Shown here: positions 3,104 through 40,736 of the stretch, piece after piece
Layout of the letters: the number at the start of each line of letters is the position of its first letter
Numbering within the stretch: the stretch's first letter is position 1
Origin: a virus
Virus record (IMG/VR): IMGVR_UViG_3300036834_000341
Location: 1 to 41,212 of that record
Length of the DNA stretch: 41,212 nucleotides
Reading direction: 5' to 3' (one strand)
Translations under genes and position numbers: made by a program
Notes under the pieces: model-generated
What the model was told of the DNA's origin: nothing
The model's input: the letters and a program-made list of their open reading frames with translations, nothing else
Database searches by the model: none

Positions 3104-4093
3104 TTAGAAGTAGTTGTCTGCATTAATGACCATTAGGGGCATTTGAGAGGAATACCATCGCGTCGATATATTCCACTTTGTCTGTATTTTACGTCCGGAA
3201 TCCGCACGCCAGAATTGAACCGCTGAGCCATTAAATCTATAGCCACAACTGTAATAGTTATAATAGCCACCACTCATTTCTGAGTTGCCACGCATAAATG
3301 CATTAACTGCAAGCGGTATCATAGGTCTCGCAATACCCGTATTGACCAAATCGTCTGGGTTTGCACCCACATTTACTGAGCGCCCATCCCAGAGCAAAGG
3401 CTCACAGTCACTCGTAAATGTGTTATTCCCAGTGGTGTTTTTAATCAGCATACCGTAACCACTTGGTGTAGGTGGGTAATATCCGCTATTCATAATTACC
3501 ACCTGTACACTGGCAGTCGTTCGGAAAGGCTCGCCACTGCCATTATCACGCGATACAGTTAATTCATTAGATTCAACAGAATGATATACAGACACACCAG
3601 GATCATCACAGCGGACATAAACAATTTTTGTATTGTCATTTTGAACCGTTGGCAGAGTCCATTGCCCACTTATAGTAACGCTCCCTTTCCATGCAACAAA
3701 ACCGAGCCGCTGTGCACTGTTTATGCTCATCCAATCAACAGAGTTTTGAATCATTATCCCGTAAGTCCCAGATACTGATTGCGGTTGCTGGACTTGATAT
3801 ATGCTGAATTCGGTAAAAAATGCCTGATTGTTTGCCGAGGAAAAATCAACGATGATTCTACCCCCATCCGTGCGCCAGCCTGTGATCCCTCCGTAAAATG
3901 GCGGATTGGTCGAACTACCAAAGATATAGCCAGTCTGCCCAACGATAAAAACTGGATTCCCAGGAACATAATCCGGGGGAGTATAAATCTTCTGTCTATT
4001 ACCATCAGCCCAGGGTTCTTTATCATTGGCTAACAGAGATGGGCTATTAACTGCTGCCAACTGTTTACCATTCACCACCAACCCATAGGCCAT
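3104..4093 (-). CDS. Tail-tip associated protein of unknown function
   Basis: A 329-aa protein starting MAYGLVVNGKQLAAVNSP, directly after gene J with GGAGG eight bases before the ATG. It is rich in Gly, Tyr, Asn and Ser and looks all-beta (repeated short strands such as WKGSVTISGQWTLP). I recall similar proteins next to J in other enterobacterial siphoviruses (DUF6453-type), but I cannot verify that here. Position between J and the fibres suggests a virion protein at the tail tip, perhaps an adaptor or short fibre. No enzymatic motif seen. Confidence 0.7.
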   Translation of the reverse strand: MAYGLVVNGKQLAAVNSPSLLANDKEPWADGNRQKIYTPPDYVPGNPVFIVGQTGYIFGSSTNPPFYGGITGWRTDGGRIIVDFSSANNQAFFTEFSIYQVQQPQSVSGTYGIMIQNSVDWMSINSAQRLGFVAWKGSVTISGQWTLPTVQNDNTKIVYVRCDDPGVSVYHSVESNELTVSRDNGSGEPFRTTASVQVVIMNSGYYPPTPSGYGMLIKNTTGNNTFTSDCEPLLWDGRSVNVGANPDDLVNTGIARPMIPLAVNAFMRGNSEMSGGYYNYYSCGYRFNGSAVQFWRADSGRKIQTKWNISTRWYSSQMPLMVINADNYF

Positions 4094-14276: not shown

Positions 14277-14868
14277 TACATGAGCGCTCGCATAACGGCA
14301 GCACACTGTTCATCAACATCAGATGCGACAGGGGCTGACAGATTGACAGGGGGCGGGATAGCAGTATCGGACGTTGCCTTATCCACCAGCGAATAGAATG
14401 CCTCCCAGTGCTGGATAATAGAGGCCGGGAGGGCTGCAATTTTTCTGACGTCAGGCTCACCGAAGCGATCGGCCAACTGATAGATCAGCCATAGCCACGG
14501 TGAGTAGGTCAGTTTTTTTCGGCTTCCTCCAGCGTGCCGTAGCTGTGGCTCTGGATAGCGCGGATTGCATCAAATAACGCCGCGTTATCATGAGCTGCCA
14601 GCAGTTCCGCCGGTGAAGGCAAATCAGACGCAGGTACTGATTTACCCTGTTCGTCAACCAGTGCACAGAGGATCAACTGAGCGCCAAGCAGTGTTGCTGC
14701 CTTTTGGTCACTCTCTAACTGTGCCTTTCCAAGCCCTTCGTCGTAATCCATCAGTTCACATACCGTCAGGCGGCGAATATGTACCGGCACGCCAAACAGC
14801 GTGTGCGGCACCGCCGTATTGGTGGGTTGAAGCAGAGCGGTCTTGAGGTTGATTTTCTTCTGGGTCAT
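14276..14868 (-). CDS. GT: Tail assembly chaperone GT by -1 frameshift
   Basis: The downstream frame (14512 to 14276) has no ATG near its beginning but is open and reads WLWLIYQLADRFGEPDV, a typical T-domain segment. The slippery heptamer A-AAA-AAC (14518-14512) lies immediately before the G stop codon, and a -1 slip there joins G (119 aa) to 78 residues of T, giving a 197-aa GT protein. In lambda, GT at a fixed ratio to G recruits the tail tube protein to the tape measure. The T part ends with TAATG overlapping H. Frameshift expression is a strong inference from motif and layout. Confidence 0.88.
14509..14868 (-). CDS. G: Tail assembly chaperone G
   Basis: A 119-aa homologue of lambda gpG, a chaperone that coats the tape measure before tube assembly. 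The body (PHTLFGVPVHIRRLTVCELMDY, then a helical C-terminus ending EEAEKN) fits the family. AAGGA lies nine bases before the ATG. Its last codons GAA AAA AAC form the slippery site for the GT fusion. A possible stop-to-start relation with the upstream tail protein is loose (9-base gap). Confidence 0.9.
   Translation of the reverse strand: MTQKKINLKTALLQPTNTAVPHTLFGVPVHIRRLTVCELMDYDEGLGKAQLESDQKAATLLGAQLILCALVDEQGKSVPASDLPSPAELLAAHDNAALFDAIRAIQSHSYGTLEEAEKN
14512..14518 (-). other. -1 ribosomal frameshift site A-AAA-AAC (G/GT)
   Basis: The heptamer fits X-XXY-YYZ in the zero frame and touches the G stop codon. A -1 slip enters the frame that continues to 14276 without a stop. Confidence 0.88.
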
Positions 14869-14877
14869 GCCATTTCC

Positions 14878-15593
14878 TTACTTAATGGTTACGGTTGCGG
14901 TAGTGCTGTTGATGGTGTCTGACCGCTCGGCAGACAACACCACGCGATAAGCGCCTGCATCTGCCGCCACAACTGAATTTTTTGTATAGGTGGCAGCGGT
15001 GGCACCGCTTATGTCGGAGCCGTTTTTCTGCCATTGGTATTTAACGGGCTTGCCGTTACTGGAGGTAGCCGCAACAGTCAGGGACAAATTGCCCCCGACC
15101 GCCAGATCAACGTTCTTCGGCTGGGTAGTCACGCTGATCACACCTTTGGGGCCACAGCACCCCATGTGTTGCTGTTCTGCTTGCCCTGAACCGTAATCTG
15201 AATGACTTCACTCGCTGGCGCGGCAATCTCATTCATCTTCCATCCGGACAGCGACAGAATGGAAGTGGAGGTGCGACCGTTTGGCAGTTCAACATAAAAC
15301 TGCACGGTTTCACGGTTGTCCGCTGCGGTAAGGAACGCAGCAAAATCAGTATTGGATGGGTCGTCGATAAACCCGATTGATTTCTCCGCTCCTTCGGGCA
15401 GATCGGAGATAAATTGCTTGGTAGTGTCGATCAGCGTGGTGCAATCCACAAAGCTGCCGGTCTGTCCCATTTCACCTACCGCCTTACAATTAACCAGTGC
15501 TTTCATTGCAGTTGGTGCGGCGCCGACAGTGCCCCATTTTACCACTGTGCCAGCAGGCAGCATGGCGTACTCTGGCGAAGTTTTATCAGCCAT
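14878..15593 (-). CDS. V: Major tail protein with Ig-like domain by -1 frameshift
   Basis: The zero frame ends after 151 aa, but the heptamer C-CCA-AAG (15150-15144) just before the stop permits a -1 slip into a frame that continues for 88 more residues. The result is about 238 aa, close to lambda gpV (246 aa). The added part (TTQPKNVDLAVGGNLSLTV, KYQWQKNGSDISGATAATYT, ADAGAYRVVLSAE) is a clear immunoglobulin-like domain with the W and Y-x-V pattern. In lambda the same kind of domain is fused in frame. Phages that add Ig domains by programmed frameshift are known (Ig decorations at a sub-stoichiometric level). The reading-frame join is inferred; an in-frame ATG at 15165 overlaps the V frame but lacks a clear ribosome site. 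Confidence 0.82.
15138..15593 (-). CDS. V: Major tail tube protein V (short form)
   Basis: A 151-aa tube protein of lambda gpV type: beta-rich body (GTVVKWGTVGAAPTAMKALV), the stretch SFVDCTTLIDTTKQFISDLP and the C-terminal ASEVIQITVQGKQNSNTWGA. GAGAGG lies six bases before the ATG. It polymerises in hexameric rings into the tail tube. Without the frameshift it ends at the stop codon TGA right after the slippery site, giving a tube subunit without the Ig-like domain. It should be the abundant form if the frameshift is only partial. Confidence 0.92.
   Translation of the reverse strand: MADKTSPEYAMLPAGTVVKWGTVGAAPTAMKALVNCKAVGEMGQTGSFVDCTTLIDTTKQFISDLPEGAEKSIGFIDDPSNTDFAAFLTAADNRETVQFYVELPNGRTSTSILSLSGWKMNEIAAPASEVIQITVQGKQNSNTWGAVAPKV
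15144..15150 (-). other. -1 ribosomal frameshift site C-CCA-AAG (V/V-Ig)
   Basis: CCCAAAG read as C-CCA-AAG in the V frame, one codon (GTG) before the stop. After a -1 slip the reading continues GGT-GTG-ATC into the Ig-like domain. Confidence 0.78.
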
Positions 15594-24908: not shown

Positions 24909-25937
24909 TTAGTTACTCGGGAAGATTTCCCGTTGTGTTTGTTCGAATCGGTCAGGTTCCAACTCAACCCCCAGCCCGATACGGCCCAGCTTGATAGCGG
25001 CCTTTATCGTTGAACCAGAACCCATGAAGAAGTCAGCAACGACGTCACCAGGGCGGCTACTGGCACTGATGATGTGCTCCATCATTTCAGCGGGCTTTTC
25101 GCATGGATGTTTACCAGCGTAGAAAGCCACCGGCGAATAAGTCCAAACGTCGGTATAAGGCACCGCAGCAGTTACCGTGAAGGTGCGCCGCAATGATTTG
25201 TATTCCCGGCATAAGTCCAGATATTCACGATTGAGGGTTTTGTATTCCTTCACCAGCTCATGATGGGGGCGATTCAACCCACCAGCCTGATGCTTCTCAT
25301 TGGCTATGCGGTCAAACAACCCCTGGAGCGCTTGATACTGCTTTTCGCTTGGCAATTGCCATTGGCTCTCGGAGAACCAGTGGCTGCACATCTGCGTTTT
25401 CGTTGCCGCGTTGATTTCCTTCGCTGACACGCCGAGAGATTGCCGCGCCGTTCTGAAATAGTCGATAAGAGGCTTTAATACGGTTTGCTTCAGCTCGCCA
25501 CACTTCGCGGCGAAACCGTCCACCTTCGGTTGTAGCGGCCCGGAGTAATGACCGGCGAAAATGATCCGCTCGGTCGCCGGGAAGAACGCTCGGAGACTCT
25601 CTTTGTGATGGCGTCTCCAAACGCCTGACGGTTTCGCCCAAATGATATGGCTCAGTACGTCGAACCTCTGGCGAACTAACAGCTCAGTATCAGACGCCAA
25701 CCGACTACCGCAAAACATGTAAAGACTGCCGTTAGGCTTAAGCACCCGCCAGAATTCCACCAGCAATGAATCCAGCCAGGCTAAATATTCAGCCTCGGTT
25801 TTCCATTGGTTATCCCAGTCGCAAGACTTCACCCGGAAATACGGCGGGTCAGTAGCGATCAGGTCGATGCAGTCATTAGGCAGGGTTTTGATGTATTCGA
25901 GTGTGTCAGCGTTGACAAGACTTGTGCTGGATATCAT
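24909..25937 (-). CDS. DNA methyltransferase (N6-adenine/N4-cytosine, DPPY type)
   Basis: A 342-aa amino-methyltransferase. Catalytic motif DPPY at 30-33 near the N-terminus, and the SAM-binding motif near the C-terminus (GDVVADFFMGSGSTIKAAI, GIGVE-like IGLGVELEPDRF). This order (DPPY before FxGSG) is the beta-class layout. The middle 150-260 is a helical target-recognition region. The ATG at 25937 has AAGGG upstream. No partner nuclease gene is visible, so it is an orphan methylase that may protect phage DNA from host restriction. It sits between the Q-like gene and the lysis cassette, with its own terminator. Confidence 0.9.
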   Translation of the reverse strand: MISSTSLVNADTLEYIKTLPNDCIDLIATDPPYFRVKSCDWDNQWKTEAEYLAWLDSLLVEFWRVLKPNGSLYMFCGSRLASDTELLVRQRFDVLSHIIWAKPSGVWRRHHKESLRAFFPATERIIFAGHYSGPLQPKVDGFAAKCGELKQTVLKPLIDYFRTARQSLGVSAKEINAATKTQMCSHWFSESQWQLPSEKQYQALQGLFDRIANEKHQAGGLNRPHHELVKEYKTLNREYLDLCREYKSLRRTFTVTAAVPYTDVWTYSPVAFYAGKHPCEKPAEMMEHIISASSRPGDVVADFFMGSGSTIKAAIKLGRIGLGVELEPDRFEQTQREIFPSN

Positions 25938-26069
25938 AAGCGCCCTTAGTTGATACGCTCGTCCTGCTGTTCGCAGCACGGGCAAAGGTTCGCTTGTGAC
26001 CATTGACATGAGCACCTGGTGGACAGGGTGTTACCTCACCCTTCCGCCGCCCACTTCACAAACATTAAG

Positions 26070-32900: not shown

Positions 32901-32958
32901 CTACTCAAAATAGAAATGACGACTACTTGGTTGGGATGTAATCTTCTACCTATGGTAG
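32878..32958. promoter_or_regulatory. OR operator array (CTAC-N5-GTAG sites)
   Basis: Sites at 32878-32890 (CTACTTAAAGTAG, perfect), 32901-32913 (CTACTCAAAATAG, one mismatch), 32923-32935 (half-site CTACTTGGTTGGG) and 32946-32958 (CTACCTATGGTAG, perfect CTAC/GTAG arms). Starts are 23, 22 and 23 bases apart, about two helix turns. The last overlaps the CI start codon and could serve autoregulation. Confidence 0.78.
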
Positions 32959-33641
32959 AAAATATAAAAAACAATGGCTTCTCTGAGCGCTTGTCTTCCC
33001 TGATGAAAGGGAAGAACATCGGCGTGACTGAGCTTTCTAAGAAAGCGGGAGTTACTTATGAAATGGCGCGCCGCTATACGCTAGGCACAGCTAAACCACG
33101 CCCAGCGATCCTAGAAAAGCTAGCTAAGACACTTGATACGACAGCCTCCTATTTGGAATATGGGGAGGTCTCTGCACAAAAAGTATCAGAACAATCATCG
33201 GGGAACCGGGTGAAACTTACCCAATTAGAGGTTTTTGCATCAGCTGGAAATGGCTATATAAACAATGAGTTTCCTGCAATCGTTAGTTCTATTGAGTTTC
33301 CGGAATCAAAGGTTTACGAGCTTTTTGGAAGGAAATCACTTGAAGGAGTGCAGTTGATCAACGTTGATGGGGATAGCATGATGCCAACCCTATGCCCTAA
33401 AGACCTGCTTTTCATCGATACTAAAATAGACCACTTCAATGGCGATGGTGTCTACGTCTTCAATTTTGAAGACTCTACATTCGTGAAGCGGCTACAAAAA
33501 GTCAAAGGACGCAAATTGGCTGTTCTGTCAGACAATGACAAGTATCCCCCTTTCTATATCGAATCTCATGAAATGAGTGAACTTTTTGTTTTTGGAAAAT
33601 TAATCAAACACTTACCACTAAAGTTTATTGATTTCGCTTAA
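32952..33641 (+). CDS. cI: CI-type repressor, S24 self-cleaving
   Basis: A 229-aa repressor. The N-terminal HTH lies at about 24-46 (GVTELSKKAGVTYEMARRYT). The self-cleavage site is Ala98-Gly99 (FASAGNGY), the catalytic Ser142 lies in GDSM and Lys179 in FVKR, as in LexA/CI. RecA filaments would trigger cleavage during SOS. I chose the ATG at 32952, inside the OR array, although no ribosome site is visible; TAATCT at 32939-32944 would place the transcript start almost at the ATG, so CI may be leaderless like lambda CI. An upstream ATG at 32916 also lacks a ribosome site. Confidence 0.93.
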   Translation: MVENIKNNGFSERLSSLMKGKNIGVTELSKKAGVTYEMARRYTLGTAKPRPAILEKLAKTLDTTASYLEYGEVSAQKVSEQSSGNRVKLTQLEVFASAGNGYINNEFPAIVSSIEFPESKVYELFGRKSLEGVQLINVDGDSMMPTLCPKDLLFIDTKIDHFNGDGVYVFNFEDSTFVKRLQKVKGRKLAVLSDNDKYPPFYIESHEMSELFVFGKLIKHLPLKFIDFA

Positions 33642-36448: not shown

Positions 36449-37264
36449 ATGGCAACTTTAAGTCAGCGCTATGCAGCGCGTGAAAGTATTGGTTCTGATA
36501 TTTCCACACGTAAAACCTTCCTGGTGCCTCTAAATGAAATTTATGCAGAAGAAGGCTATAACGTTCGCGAATTAAACCATGCGCACGTTGAAGAGTTTAG
36601 GGACGCATTTATTGCCGGTGAGTTTATTCCCCCTCTTGCTGTTGAAATAACAGAGCAGGGTGTGAAAGTGATCGACGGTCACCACCGCTATCACGGTGCG
36701 TTGCTAGCGTCTGCTGCCGGGTATGAAGTGTTGCGCCTTGAGTGTAAGGATTTCGTCGGCACTGAGGCAGATAAAATCGCCTTCATGGTCACAAGTTCGC
36801 AAGGGCTGGCACTTTCCCCAATCGAACGTGGCGCGGCTTACCAGCGGCTTGTGAATCAAGGCTGGACCAATGCTGAGATCGCAAAGAAAGTTAAGCGGTC
36901 CGAGTCTGACATTCTTCAACACCTGCAATTGCAGGAATGCACCCCATACGTTAAAAGCCTAGTTCGCACCGGTTCAATGAATTACGCCCTGGCCATCAGC
37001 ATTAACCGCGAGCATGGAGTTTATGCCGACAAGGAAGCTGCCAGATTAATGAAAAAGGCAGAAGATGCCGGTAAAACGAAAGTTACGAAAAGCATCGCAC
37101 AGCCTCAGTTCAGTGCCAAGAAGGCCCGCAGAATGCTGGAGTTACTCTTTGACGCGGTTCCCATTGTTAATGGTGACAGCGATATGCTTATGCTTTCCAA
37201 AGGCATTAAAGACGAGGTGATGCAGTTAATTAGTGATTATCGCAATGAAACCCACCAGCAATGA
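36449..37264 (+). CDS. ParB-like protein (ParB/KorB nuclease-type domain + HTH)
   Basis: A 271-aa protein. N-terminal ParB-like fold at about 20-110, with the box VIDGHHRYHGALLA at the place of the usual GERR motif; the HH-R-Y variant is known in ParB-like nuclease/regulator proteins of phages. An HTH of KorB type follows (LSPIERGAAYQRLVNQGWTN, AEIAKKVKRSESDILQHLQL). The C-terminal part may be for dimerisation. It may bind DNA and nucleotides. It overlaps the next gene by four bases (ATGA), and a C5 methyltransferase follows. Confidence 0.85.
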   Translation: MATLSQRYAARESIGSDISTRKTFLVPLNEIYAEEGYNVRELNHAHVEEFRDAFIAGEFIPPLAVEITEQGVKVIDGHHRYHGALLASAAGYEVLRLECKDFVGTEADKIAFMVTSSQGLALSPIERGAAYQRLVNQGWTNAEIAKKVKRSESDILQHLQLQECTPYVKSLVRTGSMNYALAISINREHGVYADKEAARLMKKAEDAGKTKVTKSIAQPQFSAKKARRMLELLFDAVPIVNGDSDMLMLSKGIKDEVMQLISDYRNETHQQ

Positions 37265-37502: not shown

Positions 37503-38399
37503 ATGACCGTAACCGTGAATTCATATTTCTGCGGTGCTGGCCTGATGGACATTGGGTTAATGGCCGCAGGCATCAAAGTTAATCAGGCTTTCGAACTGGA
37601 CTCAGATGCCTGCAAAACCTACCGGCACAACCTCGGCGATCACGTTAAGCAGTGCGATATCAGCCAGGAGTTGGTATTCGAACAGGGGGCCAGTAATGGC
37701 ATGGTGTTCACCTACCCTTGCACGAAGTACAGCACGATCGGTGATATCCACGGAGTGCGCACCGGCGATGACTTGTTTCTGCATGCACTCCGCCACTTTG
37801 CGCTGGCTCAGCCTGAGTTCTACGTGATCGAGAACGTGCCGGGCATGAGGGCCTTCCCCGTCGTAATGGAGGCAATGACCCGCATGCCGGATTACTTCAT
37901 TCAAGTGTTCTGCCCTATTCAGTCCGAAACATGGCTGCCTCAGCGCCGCAACCGCCTAATCATCATCGGTACCCGGCGTGCGTTTTCCATCAGACCCCCG
38001 GAGAAATTCAAACCGCTTCCATTGAGCGCAATTTTGGAAGAAGACCCGCAGGTAACTTTGCCGAAGGCCATCAAAGCGAGACTCAGCGGCTCATACCGGG
38101 ATTTACCGATTATTAGCGACCCTTCACGCGGAGATATAGCGCCAACGTGTGTTGCCCATTACGCGAAGGATAAGAGCACACGTCTGGTTGTCGATAAACG
38201 CTTCCCGCATGGCGTTAGACCGTATTCAGTCCGTGAATACGCCCGATTGCAGGGTGTACCTGATTGGTTTTCTTTCCCGGTATCAGACACTGCGGCATAC
38301 AAACAGATTGGCAATGGGGTGAGCATTCCTATTGGTGCCTGGATTGGCTCAGAGATGATTCGCTACATGCGGCAACGCAGAGGTACCCAGCATGGCTAA
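37503..38399 (+). CDS. C5 cytosine DNA methyltransferase
   Basis: A 298-aa cytosine-5 methyltransferase. Motif I FCGAGLMDIG, motif IV with catalytic Cys73 (TYPCTKYST), ENVPGM motif VI, QRRNRL motif VIII, YSVREYARLQG motif IX and QIGNGVSI motif X. It is short for a C5 methylase, so the target-recognition domain is small. No restriction enzyme is adjacent, so it probably protects phage DNA from host restriction. GGAG precedes the ATG; it overlaps the next gene by 8 bases. Confidence 0.92.
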   Translation: MTVTVNSYFCGAGLMDIGLMAAGIKVNQAFELDSDACKTYRHNLGDHVKQCDISQELVFEQGASNGMVFTYPCTKYSTIGDIHGVRTGDDLFLHALRHFALAQPEFYVIENVPGMRAFPVVMEAMTRMPDYFIQVFCPIQSETWLPQRRNRLIIIGTRRAFSIRPPEKFKPLPLSAILEEDPQVTLPKAIKARLSGSYRDLPIISDPSRGDIAPTCVAHYAKDKSTRLVVDKRFPHGVRPYSVREYARLQGVPDWFSFPVSDTAAYKQIGNGVSIPIGAWIGSEMIRYMRQRRGTQHG

Positions 38400-39131: not shown

Positions 39132-39339
39132 AAAAAATGAAGTTGCTGAGCTGGATTTACTAACCCCCGAAGAGGTTTGCAAAATGATTGGAGGGGTTAC
39201 TACTAAAACGTTGAGGGATTGGAACAAAAAGCATCGACATCGCCAACTTTTAGCACCCATTCGGTTTACACATAAACTAGTCCGGTATGAGCGCCAAAAC
39301 GTTTTGGCTTTTATTGCAAAATGCAAAAGCGTCTATTAA
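39124..39339 (+). CDS. xis: Excisionase (Xis)
   Basis: A 71-aa winged-helix protein of the AlpA/excisionase type: DLLTPEEVCKMIGGVTTKTL, RDWNKKHRHRQLLAPIRFTH, KLVRYERQNVLAFIAKCKS. It binds arm sites and directs excision by the integrase. It is the last gene of the PL operon and its stop overlaps that of int (39336-39339) in convergent orientation. Confidence 0.85.
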   Translation: MNKKNEVAELDLLTPEEVCKMIGGVTTKTLRDWNKKHRHRQLLAPIRFTHKLVRYERQNVLAFIAKCKSVY

Positions 39340-40736
39340 TGGCGTTTCTTTCTTATCAATGCCACCTGAGCGAGTATGCTGGTCTCATGGGCTTCAAAGG
39401 CCAGCCGCTTTAATGCCATTTCTTCGTTTAAAATCTCATCCGAGAAATCATAAAATTCCCCCATTGGGTCTGATTCCTTATCAGAGTGATGCATACAAAG
39501 AATGCTAATTTCTTTCGAGTCACTGCGAGAATGTCCCTTGTCACGCATCGCAGCGATGATATTACTCTTGAGGAATTTACGGCACATTGTATTAAATGCC
39601 CCTTCCTTTCCCTTCACAGTGCCATCATGTCTAACACCCTTCACGGCGTTCTCTGGGCTATATGTTTTGATAAGCTTGTCCAGAGAACGTTTGGCGAATG
39701 GTTTCGCCGGGTCACGCGGCTGAAGGAAAACATACTCCTTATTACACCCTTCAACTGAGTCCCTCCATTTCTTCTGTTCCTCCAGAATTAACCTGATGCC
39801 ATGCGTGATCGGGAGACGGAATTCCTTCTGCGTTTTCATCGCCCCTCGCATACCAGGCACTCCAGCCGGATAGATAATCTCACTCTCTTCTTTATTAATA
39901 AAATCCCAACGCAAGTTTGTTACGTTAATCGGGCGCACCCCAGTCAGGATCATGTACCTCATAGCATTTTTTTGGTGCACAGAGCTTGTGGAGGCGATGT
40001 TCAACCATAGGCCAGCTATCGATTCAATATCGGTATATAAACGGGTAGGCGTCGGCTTCTGCACACGCGACGATATATAATCGCTTGGCAAACTTGCGGC
40101 CACATTACGGCCATTACAGTAACGCGGGGCACCAAACTTCCAAAAACGTCGTAGTTCTGCTGACAACTCCAAAGCCTGGTTGTTTGACTTGGTTTCAATC
40201 CACAGGTCAAGAACCTCAAGCAGCCGGTTATACGTTATATCGCTGAAAACCTCACGCTCTCCAAATGCGGCGGCGATCTGCTTTGTCCTGGTACAGTAAG
40301 TTTTAAAACTATCCTCACCCAGTTTTTGACGATCAACCTTCGCCTGCAAGTCCCCTTCATACTCTTTAATGGCTTGTTGAACTGACTCAGCTTTCAAGCC
40401 ATTATCCGCAATATCCTTCGCCTTCTCCCTTGCAATCTGAATAGCCATTTCTGGCCACTCCCCCAATTTTTTACCCTTCAACCCCATCTTCTTTGGAAAC
40501 TCAGCATAGAACGTAACCTTGCCTGCTTTGCTAAAATCTATGCGAAGGTAGCTGTCCTTTTCGTACTTTGATCGCCGGGCCTGTCCGACCTGCGCCAAAA
40601 TGATTTTGGCAGCAGTAACACAGACTCTTATGTGTGAGCTTGCGTAAGGTGGTTTGCAGTCCTCCCAACGTGCAGATGCGGCTAAGAACTCATCATTATT
40701 GGGGTTATCTTGCATCTGTGTTACAGTGCGCGGCAT
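39336..40736 (-). CDS. int: Tyrosine-type integrase
   Basis: A 466-aa integrase with long N-terminal arm-binding and core-binding regions, and a C-terminal catalytic domain: R268 in TGVRPINVTNLRW, K301 in KTQKEFRLPI, R386 in NTMCRKF, His416/417 and Tyr429 in EFYDF. The usual His before the second Arg is replaced by Thr383, a sign of an atypical subfamily. AAGGAA precedes the ATG. It drives insertion and, with Xis, excision. Position next to the attachment region is as expected. Confidence 0.9.
   Translation of the reverse strand: MPRTVTQMQDNPNNDEFLAASARWEDCKPPYASSHIRVCVTAAKIILAQVGQARRSKYEKDSYLRIDFSKAGKVTFYAEFPKKMGLKGKKLGEWPEMAIQIAREKAKDIADNGLKAESVQQAIKEYEGDLQAKVDRQKLGEDSFKTYCTRTKQIAAAFGEREVFSDITYNRLLEVLDLWIETKSNNQALELSAELRRFWKFGAPRYCNGRNVAASLPSDYISSRVQKPTPTRLYTDIESIAGLWLNIASTSSVHQKNAMRYMILTGVRPINVTNLRWDFINKEESEIIYPAGVPGMRGAMKTQKEFRLPITHGIRLILEEQKKWRDSVEGCNKEYVFLQPRDPAKPFAKRSLDKLIKTYSPENAVKGVRHDGTVKGKEGAFNTMCRKFLKSNIIAAMRDKGHSRSDSKEISILCMHHSDKESDPMGEFYDFSDEILNEEMALKRLAFEAHETSILAQVALIRKKRH

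Follow-up and report, generated by a model that had tools for sequence, protein, structure and literature searches.

A very probable -1 frameshift adds an Ig-like domain to a subset of tail tube subunits in a Serratia-type temperate phage

The tail tube protein of phage lambda, gpV, combines a tube domain fold with a C-terminal Ig-like domain of the Big_2 family, which is encoded in frame and carried by every subunit. In SPP1, the tube protein gp17.1 is accompanied by gp17.1*, a minor frameshifted form with an additional Ig-fold domain, at a ratio of 3:1 and with the domain being dispensable (PMC8718954); this system relies on a +1 shift and an FN3 domain (PMC9022992). Frameshift-added Ig-like domains were further described for the T3 coat protein, Lactobacillus phage A2 and the Listeria phages A118, A500 and PSA (Fraser et al. 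2006, via PMC5009743). As far as that review's account goes, T3 and A2 equip a fraction of a major structural protein with a C-terminal Ig-like domain through a -1 shift, as we propose here, whereas these phages and those of Listeria represent other structural protein families and hosts, the T3 protein being a coat protein and the Listeria tail proteins using +1. PY54 gp12 (NP_892057) is listed among the tail tube proteins bearing an I-set domain in a review that ascribes the addition of many Ig domains to frameshifting (PMC9022992), and the function of the domain on the tube surface is debated (PMC8718954). Ig addition by frameshift is thus, as the earlier note had held, already known in other phages, among them T3, A2, the Listeria phages and SPP1, and the locus described here is a well-supported further example rather than a new kind of system. 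What is new is the association of a slippery heptamer with the Ig domain in Serratia prophages, the conserved hairpins downstream of it and a correction of existing annotations.

The window, i.e., the whole stretch of DNA analysed, is a virus record of 41,212 bases from a Serratia-type temperate phage, the nearest relatives of which are Serratia prophages. On its minus strand, the genes of the tail module follow one another from terminator through HK97-gp10-like, tube and chaperone G/GT to tape measure. The product of the tube gene (15593-15138), a protein of 151 aa, matches Phage_TTP_13 (PF16463) well above the cut-off of 25 (219.6 bits, E 1.2e-65) and PHROG 158, major tail protein; its predicted fold found lambda gpV structures as best matches, at a moderate model confidence (pLDDT 59). 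The gene ends with GCC CCA AAG GTG TGA, so that, as claimed before, the tube protein stops after residue 151 and the heptamer C CCA AAG (15150-15144, third base of codon 148 to codon 150) adjoins the stop. It stands in the 0-frame register of an X_XXY_YYZ site, 3 nt upstream of the 0-frame TGA (15140-15138), which in turn overlaps a -1 frame GTG (GTGA). Among the 64 X_XXZ_ZZN heptamers, C_CC.A_AA.G showed the top efficiency in E. coli, reaching up to 54% with the strong IS3 pseudoknot (PMC4066793), and C_CCA_AAG was called highly shift-prone in a review (PMC5009743).

When the sequence is re-read in the -1 frame from CCC AAA, it stays open to a TAA at 14880-14878, adding 88 residues past Lys150 for a total of 238 aa and ending 9 nt before the ATG of the chaperone gene. 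The proposed Ig-like nature of this extension (14878-15144, minus strand) was confirmed by a match to Pfam Ig_3 (PF13927; 34.5 bits at a cut-off of 30, E 2.9e-8) and by profile matches to the solved phage Ig-domain proteins 9ncf and 9c2d and the decoration protein 5lxk. The assignment rests on these sequence profiles, since the folded model (pLDDT 73) had as its top Foldseek match an Ig C2 domain at E 0.026, which is indicative at most. With its Ig domain lying in another frame downstream of a major structural gene, the locus resembles the frameshift-decorated phage structural proteins of Fraser et al. 2006. Among named relatives, PY54 (ORF12/gene 13, NC_005069) is the closest to share this arrangement and, like vB_YenS-P840, combines a homologous tube protein with the same heptamer, the hairpin and a -1 frame Ig domain; relative to the window the tube proteins are ~72% and the Ig domains ~60% identical. 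The records of both Yersinia phages treat the extension as a gene of its own, namely as 'Hoc-like head decoration' in PY54 (gene 13, L002 2929-3213) and as 'tail tube protein' in P840 (ORF14, L004 2950-3213), which probably misreads part of the tube protein as an independent product.

The earlier note had proposed a comparison with homologous loci, and its outcome favors the note's reading, the slippery site being present where the Ig domain is present and, with few exceptions, absent where it is absent. The first set comprised 90 distinct loci. In 32 of them, namely Serratia prophages and the Yersinia phages PY54, P840 and their kin, the -1 frame encoded the Ig domain, and all 32 read NNC CCA AAG in frame. 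The NNC codon varies among GCC, GTC, TCC, CCC, ACC and ATC, encoding Ala, Val, Ser, Pro, Thr or Ile, with the third C alone being fixed. Moreover, of the 111 degenerate codons with an invariant amino acid in the Serratia loci carrying the Ig domain, only 16, including CCA149 and AAG150, are codon-invariant as well. The heptamer was kept in one (L097/L149) of the 20 distinct Ig-less Serratia loci with a Pro-Lys tail or remains of it, the others reading CCG AAG (most), CCG AAA, CCA AAA, GCG AAG or ACG CCA AAG. After enlarging the set to 203 distinct loci and scanning the Ig profile over all three forward frames, CCCAAAG was found in 33 of 33 loci with a -1 frame Ig domain, while among the 168 loci without the domain three had CCCAAAG and two CCCAAAA. 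The remaining two loci, from Vibrio, lack the heptamer and have their Ig-like domain in frame: phages PhiPS02 and K303 encode a tube protein of the same family (PF16463) that continues into an I-set-like domain. The earlier note's contrast with lambda V, which has its Ig domain in frame, is therefore correct in kind and extends to homologous tubes.

Besides the Serratia locus L097/L149, CCCAAAG without an Ig domain occurs in a distant prophage genome (L331 and L332, IMG/VR 2836755666). Here, the tube gene has a PY54-like tail (PPKP) and keeps the heptamer. The -1 frame adds ~20 residues and closes at a TGA that shares bases with the ATG of a small collagen-like ORF (GDKGDKGEKGEPGKD) just after the tube stop; this ORF may encode a decoration of another kind.

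Since the Ig-bearing loci share ancestry, they cannot be counted as 32 separate events. On a tube-gene tree built without the tail codons, the Ig label requires four changes, of which well-supported branches enforce three. The heptamer goes with the Ig domain in three of three independent pairs, a number too small for significance in a sign test. The counts are thus to be read as a consistent association of heptamer and Ig domain and not as many independent events. The -1 frame protein itself is conserved among the relatives. Furthermore, no in-frame Ig domain was found among close Ig-bearing relatives in the enlarged set; as no such relative has fused the two frames, for which a one-base indel would suffice, a mixture of two tube forms seems to be selected. 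Local alignments downstream of the tube stop of Ig-less Serratia loci, searched for a relic of a lost Ig domain, were no better than shuffles. In several Ig-less loci (phiKO2 L005 2994-3025; L028, L062, L083), the gap separating the tube gene from the chaperone gene, which Ig-bearing loci fill with the extension, contains a terminator-like hairpin; in phiKO2 it is annotated as 'putative terminator'.

The region following the heptamer is predicted to fold into two hairpins, both of which are kept in every Ig-bearing lineage. Hairpin 1 (15105-15139, minus strand; 9 bp, GATCAGCGT...ACGTTGATC), the proposed stimulator, starts within the stop codon after a 4-nt spacer, a spacing that is constant in all Ig-bearing lineages, and its 5' arm is invariant from the Serratia to the Yersinia loci (GATCAGCGT...ACGYTGAT). 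Hairpin 2 (15074-15102, minus strand; ~13 bp) may be a further part of the stimulator. The predicted fold of positions +4 to +90 is more stable than dinucleotide shuffles (z about -2.8 to -4.7), and the fraction of recodings with an unchanged -1 frame protein that were as stable was 0.000-0.004 in seven of nine sequences, 0.031 in P840 and 0.039 in the basal Serratia locus L143, the hairpin of which is weaker against recoded controls (0.04-0.34). Natural changes in the stems kept 97% of the pairs, compared to 36-49% when the partners were slid. These changes are one-sided, of the G-C/G-U kind, and no compensatory double change was seen within the two stems as defined, so that covariation does not prove the hairpins; RNAalifold reported a single double change, at an extra outer pair (48-78). 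A search of the junction against known RNA families gave no Rfam match up to E 1.

Additionally, Serratia and Yersinia loci use the same codon at 16-19 of the 19-21 residues they share within the first 27 codons of the extension, compared to roughly a third in the rest of the extension and ~40% in the tube gene (p 0.017 to 1e-7, with the compared pairs being mutually dependent). Such a localised synonymous constraint is what a frameshift signal would predict, whatever the fold. A highly shift-prone heptamer with a predicted conserved hairpin at the usual distance makes -1 slippage the straightforward reading, and the programmed frameshift suggested by the earlier note is supported by the tracking of heptamer and Ig domain, by the hairpin and by this peak of synonymous conservation.

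The main rival to this reading is termination followed by reinitiation at the GTG overlapping the TGA, which would release a free Ig-like protein of ~87 residues. This is formally possible because the GTG overlaps the stop in every Ig-bearing locus, and the P840 record implies it with a CDS beginning at that very GTG. However, GTGA also occurs in the Ig-less Serratia loci with a Pro-Lys tail and hence does not track the Ig domain as the heptamer does, the GTG is never replaced by ATG, and there is no well-placed ribosome-binding site (AAGG lies 1 nt away). As reinitiation, moreover, predicts neither a fixed C CCA AAG nor a hairpin starting inside the stop codon, we consider it improbable. Even less credible is an independent start further upstream, as annotated for PY54 gene 13. 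The earlier note had described the Ig-like frame as being without a clear start of its own, which holds insofar as no conserved upstream start was found among the relatives, while the window does contain an ATG at 15165, as does PY54, in addition to the stop-overlapping GTG present in all Ig-bearing relatives. The ATG is restricted to a minority of the relatives, CTG being found in most of them instead, the -1 frame sequence upstream of CCC AAA is not conserved, and in L105/L106 this frame is closed by a TGA directly upstream of the CTG.

When the last 23 codons are recoded synonymously according to the codon usage of the phage itself, CCCAAAG arises with a chance of 2.9% (P 0.029) and any efficient heptamer with one of 14% (0.14); one sequence alone is thus weak evidence, and the heptamer becomes significant by its conservation pattern among relatives. 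A chance heptamer at the end of a decayed or mis-sequenced gene, with an Ig domain that most phages leave unexpressed, is compatible with these single-sequence odds and is nevertheless hardly credible at all, given that the open frame, the Ig signature, the heptamer and the hairpins are conserved from Serratia to Yersinia with Ig proteins ~60% identical.

The -1 slip at C CCA AAG, by which one tube gene would yield co-assembling subunits of 151 aa and 238 aa, is the reading that we favor, with a probability of about 0.92. The majority of ribosomes would terminate at the TGA and release the 151-aa subunit, and a fraction would pause at the conserved hairpin with Pro-tRNA and Lys-tRNA on C CCA AAG, slip back by one base onto CCC AAA and read on to produce the 238-aa subunit with its C-terminal Ig-like domain. 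With both forms assembling into the same tube, we infer a sub-stoichiometric decoration with Ig domains on some of the subunits. By comparison with SPP1 and lambda, these domains should lie outside the tube (PMC8718954), where they may contribute weak, non-essential surface binding. A more tentative proposal, which we hold at somewhat less than even odds, is that the proportion of Ig-bearing subunits is high and under selection, being set by the two-hairpin stimulator coupled to the most slippery heptamer of bacteria, and that the slippery site decays in relatives after loss of the Ig domain. If so, the family would represent a natural experiment on mixed versus uniform tail decoration.

This locus extends the short list of known frameshift-decorated phage tails by a well-documented example, for which Ig-less loci provide a natural control. 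The reviews leave open what advantage a partial Ig decoration brings, and a family in which some close relatives possess the domain and others lack it would lend itself to measuring this.

Directly downstream, the tail assembly chaperone gene G (14509-14868, minus strand; 119 aa, Phage_TAC_14, E 3.8e-22), situated between the tube and tape measure genes, has an A AAA AAC site (14519-14513) preceding its TGA and leading into T by a -1 shift, as is typical of G/GT. The second, classic frameshift gene to which the earlier note had pointed is thus real and its site is conserved; because A AAA AAC is common to the Ig-bearing and Ig-less loci examined, the adjacent genes represent two known devices side by side. 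Across the whole window, CCCAAAG occurs twice (~7 expected from shuffles), one occurrence being the tube-gene site. The temperate phage encodes both a ParB-like, partition-like protein (36449-37264) and an integrase (39336-40736), in addition to a CI-like repressor (32916-33641), and carries two DNA methyltransferases of differing families (24909-26015 and 37503-38399). A 'moron'-class membrane protein (phrog_1265, 3104-4093), a possible lysogenic-conversion gene, is flanked by the central fibre J gene on one side and by the tail fibre genes on the other.
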